From a bacterium (GTDB lineage Bacteria; Campylobacterota; Campylobacteria; Campylobacterales; Sulfurimonadaceae): 64,000 nucleotides of DNA. The translations under genes and the position numbers were made by a program. Of this stretch, positions 50,022 through 53,043 are shown one piece after another (position 1 is the stretch's first letter; each line of letters starts with the position of its first letter). The stretch covers positions 372,001-436,000 of the forward strand of contig JAHJJX010000027.1 in assembly GCA_018822665.1 (NCBI GenBank), read 5' to 3'. A model generated the notes under the pieces. That model had not been told where the DNA came from. It searched no databases and worked only from the letters and a program-made list of their open reading frames with translations.

Positions 50022-50092
50022 ATATAACGGTTGACTTGAGAAATAGTTTTGCCCGCTAGGGTAAACTATGTCTCTCCAATGATTTGTTATCT
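50022..50092 (-). repeat. attC-like site downstream of arsM
   Basis: A 71-bp site. On the minus strand, the R'' box AGATAAC overlaps the arsM stop codon. It is followed by a 5-base spacer and an imperfect inverted repeat: TTGGAGAGACATAG pairs with CTATTTCTCAA, leaving extra bases in the first arm, around a short loop. The R' box GTTATAT closes it. Box spacing and extrahelical bases match integron attC folding. The same length and the shared TTGGAGAGA and TTTCTCAA pieces recur in the site at 51509-51579. Confidence 0.82.
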
Positions 50093-50858
50093 ATTTAACT
50101 GCTTCAATATTTGCTGAAACTATATAGTCTTCAATGTTCTCAGACCACTCTTTTAAAAACTTTTTACTCTCAGTTTTAGGTATGATATTTATGTTTTTAA
50201 AACCAGATTTTTTTAGAAGCAACTCTAAATCATCTATAAAACTGGCACCAGCGATGCAAGCTCCATAGCTATCTAGTGTTATCATATGTGATGGAATCTG
50301 TTTTGTTAATACTATGTCTGATATAGCTAGTCTACCACCGTTTTTTAAAACCCTGAAAGCTTCATCAAAAACTCTTTGTTTGTCTAAAGATAGATTTATA
50401 ACACAGTTTGAAATGATTACATCCACACTATCGTCTGCAACGGGTAGGTTCTCAATCTCTCCCAATCTAAAATCAACATTATCATAGCCGTTTTTATCTT
50501 TATTGCTTCGTGCTTTTGCTATCATCTCTCTTGTCATATCTACTCCGATTACTTTTCCATTTTCTCCAACTTCTCTTGAAGCTAAAAAACAATCAAGTCC
50601 GGCACCGCTTCCTAAGTCTAAAACTACTTCACCTTTTTTTAATAAAGCTATAGCTGTTGGGTTTCCACATCCTAAACCTTTATCCGCCTCTTTAGGTATG
50701 GAGTTAAGTTGCTCCTCTGAGTATCCCAAGTTTAAAGAGATACCATCACTATTGCAACAACCACTAGCAGTGCAACCACAGCTGTCGTCATTTGATGCAA
50801 TTCTCGCATAGTTTTGAGCTATTGCATCTTTTTTTTGTTCTTGTGTAAAAGTATTCAT
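50091..50858 (-). CDS. arsM: Arsenite S-adenosylmethionine methyltransferase
   Basis: A 255-residue class I methyltransferase. The N-terminal Cys-rich CGCTASGCCNSD is followed by the ArsM signature SLNLGYSEEQL and LGCGNPTA, SAM motif VLDLGSGAGLDCF, and the Cys of SNCVINLS and SYGACIAGAS that bind As(III). It should methylate arsenite to volatile or less retained species. It lies in an integron cassette behind a SigZ-like sigma gene, with an 85-base gap. Confidence 0.94.
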   Translation of the reverse strand: MNTFTQEQKKDAIAQNYARIASNDDSCGCTASGCCNSDGISLNLGYSEEQLNSIPKEADKGLGCGNPTAIALLKKGEVVLDLGSGAGLDCFLASREVGENGKVIGVDMTREMIAKARSNKDKNGYDNVDFRLGEIENLPVADDSVDVIISNCVINLSLDKQRVFDEAFRVLKNGGRLAISDIVLTKQIPSHMITLDSYGACIAGASFIDDLELLLKKSGFKNINIIPKTESKKFLKEWSENIEDYIVSANIEAVK

Positions 50859-50943
50859 AACTTTCCTTTAAAAATATTTCGAGATTTGATTCTCTAGTAA
50901 CATAAACGATTTTTTTTTTAAAAGGTTTCATTTTTATCAAAAT

Positions 50944-51489
50944 TTAGCAAAAATTACAGTTTTTATCTTTCACATCATAGTCTATTATATTTCCAAATTT
51001 ATCATACTCGTAATGACAACATTGAAGTAATTTGTCTTTAATCTGTTTCTTGCCTCTAAAAATTATATTTTTTATATTGCTTGAACTAATATTTAGCTTT
51101 TCTGCTATCTCTTTTTGTTTTAGCTCTTTTATCTCAGACAGATACAATGCTTTAGCGTATTTAGGTGTAAGTGAATTGATTATTGGTTCTATACAATTTG
51201 AAATCTCATTTATTGCTGATAATTGCTCTTTTTCTTCAAAAATATGCTCCTCATAAAATTCTATATTATTTTGATTTTTATTATTTTTTCTGTAAAAATC
51301 AATAATAGCATTTCTGGTAATAGTAAATATCCATGATGTTAATTTTTCCGTTGAATCAAGCGTATCCATGTTTTTATATATTTTAATAAATACCTCAGAA
51401 AGAATATCTTTCGCATCTTCTTGATTATGGATTTTTGAGTTTATGAAAGAGAAAAGTCTTGAGTAGTATTGTTTATATATCTGTTCCAT
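50944..51489 (-). CDS. SigZ-like ECF sigma factor with Cys-rich tail
   Basis: A 181-residue sigma-70 family protein. Region 2: YYSRLFSFINSKIHNQEDAKDILSEVFIKIY and the ITRNAIIDFYRK melting helix. Region 4: LTPKYAKALYLSEIKELKQKEIAEKLN helix-turn-helix. The tail carries CCHYEYDKFG and ends CNFC, four cysteines in the last 25 residues, as in SigZ-type sigmas. No anti-sigma gene is adjacent. Placement just before arsM suggests the sigma drives arsM and that the cysteines could sense As(III) directly; both are inference. Confidence 0.88.
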   Translation of the reverse strand: MEQIYKQYYSRLFSFINSKIHNQEDAKDILSEVFIKIYKNMDTLDSTEKLTSWIFTITRNAIIDFYRKNNKNQNNIEFYEEHIFEEKEQLSAINEISNCIEPIINSLTPKYAKALYLSEIKELKQKEIAEKLNISSSNIKNIIFRGKKQIKDKLLQCCHYEYDKFGNIIDYDVKDKNCNFC

Positions 51490-51508
51490 AATGCTTAAAT
51501 CCTCTAGT

Positions 51509-51579
51509 AGATAACTACTGTCTTGAGAAATATGAAGCCGCGCTTTGGCTTCATATTTCTCTCCAAGTTCTTGTTATAT
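51509..51579 (-). repeat. attC-like site downstream of the first cassette gene
   Basis: A 71-bp site. On the minus strand R'' is ATATAAC. A long hairpin follows: TTGGAGAGAAATATGAAGCC pairs with GGCTTCATATTTCTCAA, leaving GAG unpaired, around a 7-base loop. R' is GTTATCT. It lies 7 bases past the stop of the hypothetical gene and just ahead of the sigma gene's ribosome binding site. Confidence 0.85.
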
Positions 51580-52210
51580 CTTTAGGCTATTTAACATCTA
51601 AAAAATAAGAGCTTTCATAAATAACCATGCCAACTGGTGATTTTACATGATATGTGTTATAGCTCATATACCCTTTTTGATTAAAATATGCATAATTTTC
51701 TGTTTCTTTTTCAATACTATATTTCGAATCTTCTTTTAGTTCATTATATAATTTAAGTACATCAGATGATTCTGCTTCTACATATTGTTTTAATGTGACA
51801 AATAATTGTTTTTCTTTTTTGAAATGAACAAAAGTACAGTTTACAACTCTATTATCATTGTAAATTGTAACATCACAAATTTGAGCATTACTATTTTTGA
51901 TTTTTGTATCAGCTCCAGTTGTATTAGTAGTCCAATGAGCAGACCAATTTTTTGTAAAAAAATCACCAAGTTTATTAAAAACAACTTTTTTCATATTTTC
52001 ATTTGATGGTAATTCAAGAACTTCCATTACTCTTGCTACAACTTTTTTTTGTTCATCTGGAATTGAACTTACAGAATCTAGTGCATATATATTATGCACC
52101 AACAACATTAATAACAATAATTTTTTCATTTGATACTCCAAATATGATTTACCTTATTGATTTTCAAAAGGCATATCTAAAACTCAAAAAATATTGAATC
52201 TTAGATATAA
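51515..52210 (-). mobile_element. Integron gene cassette 1 (hypothetical secreted protein)
   Basis: A 696-bp unit between the attI-like core at 52205-52211 and the attC-like site at 51509-51579. Its R'' (ATATAAC) is the exact complement of the R' formed by G plus its 5' TTATAT. It holds one minus-strand gene, oriented away from the integrase as expected. Confidence 0.75.
51587..52129 (-). CDS. Hypothetical secreted protein (integron cassette)
   Basis: A 180-residue protein with a clear signal peptide (MKKLLLLMLLVHNIYALDS). The mature part has no motif I recognise; it is mixed alpha/beta in character with two Cys in ICDVTIYNDNRVVNCTF. The ATG at 52129 has GGAG six bases upstream and replaces a longer start. 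Cassette genes of unknown function are the norm. Lower-GC codon use than neighbours fits foreign origin. Confidence 0.75.
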   Translation of the reverse strand: MKKLLLLMLLVHNIYALDSVSSIPDEQKKVVARVMEVLELPSNENMKKVVFNKLGDFFTKNWSAHWTTNTTGADTKIKNSNAQICDVTIYNDNRVVNCTFVHFKKEKQLFVTLKQYVEAESSDVLKLYNELKEDSKYSIEKETENYAYFNQKGYMSYNTYHVKSPVGMVIYESSYFLDVK

Positions 52211-52462
52211 CTATTTATTCAAACACATTATATAAAGAACAACCTGAAATAATATACATAACTAACAGGTTTTTTGTATGTAAAATAGTTAAAATATATG
52301 GTAGATTGTCATATTTTTAATTAAAAAGAGAAAAAATCCGTAAAATTCTTAAAGTTTGAGTGTTTGTTTAATACTGCATATTCAAATTAAATCACATTAT
52401 GTGAGTTAATTATCAAATATCTTATATAACTTGCAAAATGTTACTTAAGCGAAGGATTGAAA
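52142..52462. other. Intergenic region with attI-like core between integrase and first cassette
   Basis: No gene is seen in these 321 AT-rich bases. At 52205-52211 the minus strand reads GTTATAT, identical to the R' box of the site at 50022-50028 and complementary to the R'' of the first cassette. It lies about 250 bases upstream of the integrase start, the place for attI. Promoters for the divergent cassette array are expected here but none is certain. Confidence 0.6.
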
Positions 52463-53043
52463 ATGGACGTTAAAAAAAAAGCTATTGGATTTAGTTCGGG
52501 ATAAGATTAGGTTTAAACATTACAGTTATTCAACTGAAAAAACTTACGTACATTGGATAAAGCATTATATATTTTTTCATAATAAAAAGCATCCAATAGA
52601 TATGGGTAAATTTGAAATAGAAGCGTATTTGACAAAGTTAGCTACTCAAGATAAAGTCTCACCAACTACACAAAATCAAGCTTTTAGTGCTTTATTATCT
52701 TTATAACAAAAGGATATGTTTTTTTAGTTTAGGGGTGGGTCAAAAAGAATCAAAAAAGTGGATCAGTTTTCAGTCAAAAAATTCAGTTAAAAATGTATTG
52801 CAAACCTGCATAAACAAGATTTAGATAATGGATACGGAAGTGTTTATATACCATATGCATTAGAGAGAAAATATCCATCCTCAAAACTTGAAACCAAATG
52901 CCACTCATCTGCTTCAAGCAGGGATAGATTTACGTTCAATTCAAGAGTTGTTGGGACATAAATCAGTTGAGACAACAATGATCTACACTCATGTCGTGTC
53001 TGAGATGAATAAGGCTAAAGTTATCAGTCCTTTAGATTTTTAA
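52463..53043 (+). pseudogene. intI: Decayed integron-type tyrosine recombinase
   Basis: The ATG follows GAAGGA. After a run of nine A the frame must shift by one base (eight A would be in frame) to read LLDLVRDKIRFKHYSYSTEKTY and on to NQAFSALLSL, the IntI N-terminal SAM-like domain. A stop follows at about 52706. About 100 unrelated bases follow, then [24 protein letters not shown], a deletion removing the catalytic HxxR region, then [20 protein letters not shown] and TTMIYTHV with the final catalytic Tyr. The enzyme cannot be active. Confidence 0.88.
52721..52790. mobile_element. Possible insertion-sequence remnant inside intI
   Basis: Sequence between the two recognisable integrase parts matches neither side. 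It includes a GTGGATCAGTTTTCAGTC stretch (52758-52775) that resembles the terminal repeats of IS21-type elements. No transposase remains. The assignment rests on this short resemblance only. Confidence 0.3.

Follow-up and report, generated by a model that had tools for sequence, protein, structure and literature searches.

An integron cassette with a sigma gene and arsM

The window, by which we mean the whole 64,000-nucleotide stretch of Sulfurimonadaceae DNA that was analysed, holds an integron, its integrase gene decayed, with the following features:

50022..50092, minus strand: attC of cassette 2 (from sequence, folding and a genome pattern search), its R'' overlapping the arsM stop
50028..51514, minus strand: integron gene cassette 2 (sigZ-promoter-arsM), 1487 bp, R' boxes read from the sequence
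50091..50858, minus strand: arsM, As(III) S-adenosylmethionine methyltransferase, 255 aa (NF008823, PDB 5evj alignment, Cys positions)
50903..50930, minus strand: predicted sigma-specific promoter of arsM, -35 TGAAACCTTTT, -10 CGTTTA (alignment with congeners)
50944..51489, minus strand: SigZ-type ECF sigma gene, 181 aa (PF04542, PF08281 and NF007215 over full length)
51500..51505, minus strand: ribosome-binding site AGAGGA of the sigma gene (sequence)
51509..51579, minus strand: attC of cassette 1, the 5' border of cassette 2 (sequence, folding and a genome pattern search)
51515..52210, minus strand: gene cassette 1, attI-side junction GTTATAT at 52205-52211, read from the sequence
51587-52141, minus strand: ORF of cassette 1, 184 aa, signal-peptide-like start
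52461..53040, plus strand: decayed integron integrase gene, intI (TIGR02249 pieces at C20:424482-425037; sequence)

Cassette 2 starts at T51514 and is bounded by R' boxes GTTATCT (51515..51509) and GTTATAT (50028..50022), with the G of R' at 51515 upstream and at 50028 downstream. The attC sites on its two sides agree in L'' (CTTGGAGA/CATTGGAGA) and in L' (TCTCAAG); the pairing of CTTGGAGA with TCTCAAG leaves one G unpaired. Both sites fold better than their shuffled versions (z -3.7 and -6.1), and a pattern made from the two has exactly two matches in the 2.5-Mb genome and none in a reversed control. An integron cassette is recognised by attC sites on either side, in which R'' pairs with R' and L'' with L' and a base stays unpaired, and by an adjoining attI and integrase gene; all of these are present here, the intI gene in decayed form. 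The sequence-only reading had placed a SigZ-like sigma gene and arsM in one cassette at 50028-51514, and these coordinates hold to the base. The overlap of the arsM stop with the R'' box that it had pointed out is also there, the TAG lying within TAGATAAC (50086-50093; R'' AGATAAC), as is the ribosome-binding site right after the cassette's 5' end: AGAGGA lies 9 nt past the cassette start and 10 nt ahead of the sigma ATG. The ECF promoter, the decayed intI and the first cassette were added by the present analysis.

Of the 315 positions of the integron-integrase model, the remaining pieces of intI match 1-77, 178-214 and 269-313. Within the gene lie about 95 bp of foreign DNA (GGGGTGGGTCA...GTGGATCAGTTTTC, window 52707-52800), probably an insertion-sequence remnant. 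Because intI is broken, cassette 2 may have lost its mobility in this strain. Another integron integrase gene, near full length and with an in-frame TAG/frameshift, is found at a contig start (G000, C27:302-1245; L153), and a second integron may extend across the contig break there. The 184-aa product of cassette 1 has no family match in Pfam or NCBIfam, and Rfam yields nothing in the window except a tRNA.

The arsM product belongs to its family by the curated model (NF008823, arsenite methyltransferase: 330 bits, cut-off 263) and by three As-binding cysteines, C64, C152 and C201 (in GCGNP, SNCVIN and GACIAG), which match the known positions in the alignment with PDB 5evj. Of the arsenic exporters, Acr3 was looked for in the window genome and is absent, so that methylation may be a main defence against arsenic.

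The sigma factor

The sigma protein consists of sigma2 and sigma4 domains and a C-terminal extension with a cysteine tail. SigZ is the best-scoring of all NCBIfam models and is matched over its full length of 181 positions, but the scores fall below both curated cut-offs, by 26 bits for NF007215 (186.1; cut-off 212) and by 4 bits for TIGR02959 (164.5; cut-off 168.65). The Cys tail, a trait of the family to which Bacillus subtilis SigZ belongs (TIGR02959/NF007215), and the spacing of the cognate promoter conserved among 80 relatives are both found in the window sigma, which departs from SigZ in having KNII for KSRV in its recognition helix and a changed -35 box. On these sequence features it is a SigZ-type sigma, and a divergent relative. 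Of the two family names previously given, ArsM thus stands over its cut-off, and SigZ is the best match but lies under its own.

The sequence-only reading had remarked on CC and CxxC in the tail of the sigma. They are present, at 157-158 and 178-181 (C178 and C181), and are accompanied by a conserved C99 in the sigma2-sigma4 linker region. Among 81 SigZ proteins C157 is invariant, C158 is kept in 78, C178 and C181 in 71 and C99 in 69. The tail had been taken as a special feature of the arsM-paired sigma, and as an arsenic-specific feature of the window sigma it has to be rejected: nearly all SigZ proteins have it, also those that lie beside other genes, so that CC...CxxC is not specific to arsM. 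In the AlphaFold model CC starts and CxxC ends a small C-terminal beta hairpin (confidence of the tail about 70; the domains are poorly placed relative to each other, pTM 0.46). A structure search with the sigma protein brought up generic ECF sigmas only.

From the cassette start to the sigma ATG there are 25 bp. With so little DNA ahead of it, transcription of the sigma gene must come from outside the cassette, which holds no promoter for it; 'self-contained', as the unit had been called, is therefore too strong. A scan for sigma-70 promoters gave sites no more numerous than in shuffled sequence, and none stood out for the sigma gene, so that its promoter cannot be named. The absence of an anti-sigma factor, on the other hand, is borne out: the cassette has no anti-sigma gene, and in the 11 other sigma-arsM pairs that were examined closely the two genes have nothing but the promoter region between them.

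A metal-responsive ECF sigma that dispenses with an anti-sigma has a precedent. CorE and CorE2 of Myxococcus xanthus (ECF238, formerly ECF44) are metal-responsive by experiment (PMC3107203, PMC8103513), and CorE senses metal through a C-terminal Cys-rich extension (PMC3107203). The window sigma is like them in being an ECF sigma with such an extension, with no linked anti-sigma and with linked metal-handling genes. In CorE, which has copper-handling neighbours and has been reported from four phyla, four invariant cysteines (181/184/192/194) form a compact domain, whereas SigZ has CC-x19-CxxC. The window sigma does not have the CorE-like (ECF238) Cys-domain pattern, and for that reason SigZ is not placed under CorE.

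A promoter that goes with the sigma factor

A sigma-type promoter had been predicted between 50859 and 50943, and there is indeed a conserved ECF-type site in that interval, at 50903-50930. Its boxes are 22 nt apart, start to start, and it stands 44 nt ahead of the arsM ATG. All Sulfurimonas copies, when aligned, keep TGAAACC(T)TTTT...TCGT(C/T)TA between sigma and arsM, an element that looks like an ECF promoter. Distant sigma-arsM pairs have TGCGTCCTTTT...CGTCT at the same site with a start-to-start distance of exactly 22 nt. The family form is TGCGTCC..CGTCT, again 22 nt start to start, and the promoter recurs at identical spacing in 12/12 aligned sigma-arsM gaps from several phyla. Not one of 200,000 shuffles of the window's intergenic region gave a match to the promoter. 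The Sulfurimonas form occurs at two sites in the window genome, and only the cassette copy adjoins sigma and arsM.

A scan of 84,980 genomes supplied the best 80 SigZ loci. The exact motif at spacing 22 occurs at 47 sites in these (0 in two shuffle sets), a count in which the arsM pairs are not independent, since the motif was initially derived from them, and to which SigZ genes without arsM contribute most of the sites. The 47 lie within 1.5 kb of the sigma gene (276 kb of sequence), as against 3 further out (485 kb), and none is found around 26 other ECF genes. Twelve of the 80 loci have no recognisable near-consensus motif, including two Sulfurimonas loci and one from Bacteroidota that have variants; at the Vibrio SigZ loci L081, L091, L092, L099, L100 and L117 the consensus site is absent. 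Twenty whole genomes with SigZ contain 17 motif sites in total (0 for the reversed pattern), which means that the predicted regulon is often one promoter.

The -35 box changes with the sigma factor. Most SigZ proteins have KSRV at residues 140-143, in the recognition helix, and these are paired with TGCGTC[CT]. In the rare helix classes, of one or two loci each, KTRI (two sigmas) goes with TGCGACC, KNII/KSII (Sulfurimonas) with TGAAACC, KMKV with TGTGACC and KNRV with TGGGTCC. This co-variation is the pattern that cognate recognition predicts; for the window sigma the spacing of 22 nt has stayed unchanged and the -35 box has diverged along with the helix. We strongly infer that the sigma recognises the internal promoter and drives arsM. 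As judged from its sequence, then, the unit is a SigZ-family sigma gene without a partner anti-sigma, a SigZ-type promoter and arsM, between two attC sites.

Distribution of the sigma-arsM pair

The unit is present in five Sulfurimonas genomes, the window's included, at unrelated sites. Among 149 relatives, three other Sulfurimonas genomes have both the sigma and the same type of arsM and the rest have neither, arsM of this type being present only where the sigma is; the fourth further copy, in Kmv11, came from the 84,980-genome scan. Pairwise BLAST of the copies limits their homology to about 51513-50074, which is the cassette, and the flanks are unrelated throughout: one copy lies beside trpA, another beside tex, and the surroundings of others differ again. 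The copy in G005 is a pseudogene. The suggestion of a transferable sigma-arsM unit is supported. An intact attC is found in the window copy only and in none of the sister copies, two of which have attC-like traces (R'' AGATAAC in STA_8, an L''-L' type stem in Kmv11), making cassette-like movement within Sulfurimonas likely. A SigZ-like sigma of another kind, with CC and no CxxC, is encoded in Sulfurimonas genome G398 (L014), where its gene overlaps that of a cation-diffusion-type transporter and faces that of a Cys-rich protein; it perhaps responds to a different metal.

Beyond the genus, arsM adjoins the sigma gene in 12 of the best 80 SigZ loci, in at least five phyla, and in none of 26 other ECF loci from the same phylum as the window. 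Ten of the 12 are from outside Sulfurimonas, in Bacteroidota, Ignavibacteria, Chloroflexota, Bacillota, the gammaproteobacterium Thiomargarita and one unassigned genome. Pairs in other genomes, for which the sequence-only reading had recommended a search, thus exist, but mostly as a chromosomal operon: nine of the ten were scanned for attC and none had a convincing one. Widespread integron carriage of the pair was entertained and given up, three of four fold-based attC candidates being terminator-like or repeat-like hairpins and the fourth weak. With no convincing attC outside the genus, the sigma-arsM pair is, on comparative grounds, a widespread chromosomal operon that turned into a cassette in Sulfurimonas. 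The sequence-only reading would have fallen had the pair occurred exclusively outside integrons, which is not the case: the window copy lies in one, and the two sister copies have the attC-like traces just described. On three plasmids that were inspected SigZ has other or unannotated neighbours, with no sigma-arsM pair seen, and no relatives were found on viral contigs.

What SigZ may sense

The mechanism that we propose would work as follows. Transcription from outside, from an integron or a host promoter, would supply the sigma factor, and arsM would be transcribed from the internal sigma-dependent promoter, an arrangement that, given some read-through for the sigma gene, would make expression of the cassette regulated wherever it lands. 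By analogy with CorE, C99, CC and CxxC would bind a trivalent arsenical, As(III) or the product MAs(III), and the bound arsenical would set the activity of the sigma factor, no anti-sigma being involved. Throughout the family, SigZ sigmas would mainly switch genes of arsenic (organoarsenical) detoxification. We think it probable that the cassette is such a mobile regulatory unit, with a SigZ-type sigma driving arsM and sensing arsenic through its cysteines, and that SigZ sigmas are mainly arsenic switches. The chances are about even for the more far-reaching proposition that SigZ is a phylum-spanning arsenic sensor-activator whose own Cys tail binds trivalent (organo)arsenicals, which needs no anti-sigma and which has a promoter of its own for the control of arsM/arsI/arsH/arsP-type genes. 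In Sulfurimonas sensor, promoter and enzyme would then be united in a single integron cassette, and no cassette known before may have included the sigma factor that reads its promoter.

With the first ORF behind each promoter site taken as the target, the counts are 13 for SigZ itself, which suggests autoregulation, 9 for ArsM, 8 each for DUF2703 and small Cys-rich proteins, 6 for glutathione transferase (GST), 5 for ArsP_1-type permeases, 4 for ArsI, 3 each for ArsH and ArsO-like flavoproteins, and a few others. Representatives of ArsI (NF041414) and ArsH (TIGR02690) score over the curated cut-offs. The ArsM, ArsI, ArsH and ArsP families act on trivalent (methyl)arsenicals. One locus has the order SigZ-DUF2703-ArsR-Acr3-ArsC, and at another ArsR lies ahead and an ArsK-like exporter behind. 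Some of the targets have no specific tie to arsenic, namely GST, MATE, aldo/keto reductase, C-S lyase and SigZ itself; the SigZ-type promoter ahead of PatB-type C-S lyase genes (L142, L101; Marinifilum, Shewanella) is a recurrent non-arsenic case. The small Cys-rich proteins (60-85 aa, no family match), encoded right behind SigZ-type promoters, form two groups (L051, L052, L055, L056, L060 and L046, L047, L073). One group resembles the N-terminus of some ArsM proteins (CCGGPAP...CC...GCGC) and may chelate arsenic.

The breadth of this list could be taken to say that SigZ answers to thiol stress or soft-metal stress in general (electrophiles, Hg, Cd, Cu, Zn) and that arsM is one thiol-detoxification output among several. 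Glutathione transferases, the PatB-type C-S lyase and aldo/keto reductase would fit that, as would the ArsP_1 permeases, which are closest to SO_0444 Cu/Zn transporters, and the Sulfurimonas SigZ-like gene next to a cation transporter (L014). The commonest identifiable specific targets are, however, ArsM, ArsI, ArsH and ArsP-type proteins, and ArsR, Acr3 and ArsC are found near SigZ at L066; we regard general stress as a rather unlikely signal. It is unlikely, too, that the sigma drives arsM and senses no arsenic, its amount being set from outside or its tail holding a structural zinc, so that arsM expression would simply follow the production of the sigma. SigZ proteins with a wide variety of targets do share the tail, and CC and CxxC on a modelled hairpin are also compatible with a zinc site, yet the targets are strongly biased to arsenic, the cassette has no ArsR gene to provide an arsenic response, and an always-on sigma kept beside its single target makes little sense. 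That sigma and arsM are chance neighbours with no regulatory tie (two-gene cassettes do occur, and co-location alone was the first observation) is highly improbable and at odds with what the comparison of genomes has already shown: the recurrence of the pair, with its promoter spacing unchanged, in several phyla, the co-variation of promoter and recognition helix, and the confinement of arsM to sigma-bearing genomes among the 149 relatives.

SigZ is best read, in our opinion, as a family of one-component ECF sigma factors that respond to metalloids and are mostly dedicated to arsenic, packaged here in a cassette, with the sensing of the ligand as its presumptive part.

Relation to known systems and implications

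ArsR-type ars operons, such as arsM-acr3-MPPE-arsR1 of Paraclostridium bifermentans, in which arsM is under ArsR control (PMC11653729), also put arsM in an arsenic-regulated unit, by derepression; the window unit differs in having a dedicated sigma and promoter and no ArsR. Integron cassettes with internal promoters have been described (cmlA, qac, qnrVC1 and toxin-antitoxin cassettes; PMC8876359), and like them the window cassette escapes the position effect by means of its own promoter. Theirs are read by the host polymerase, whereas the window cassette comes with a sigma factor for its promoter as well, and none that does so is described in the literature that was searched. A review of the sigma factors of B. 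subtilis gives no function for SigZ (PMC10141391). Our search of the literature turned up nothing that joins SigZ with an arsenite methyltransferase or an ECF sigma factor with arsM, and no report of a family-wide SigZ-arsenic link with a dedicated promoter, which does not of itself prove novelty. That family-wide link, seen by sequence comparison, is the larger result, and it suggests control of arsenic detoxification as the function of a family that has had none assigned.

The control of arsenic genes is generally ascribed in the main to ArsR-type repressors. If the reading of SigZ as an arsenic-responsive sigma family is true, arsenic methylation and the detoxification of organoarsenicals would have a second way of being controlled, by activation through a sigma switch, and SigZ would gain a function and a testable promoter code. 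A gene cassette that carries its own sigma factor would be a way round the integron position effect, and sigma-promoter-arsM, being compact and portable, may serve as a module in arsenic biosensors.
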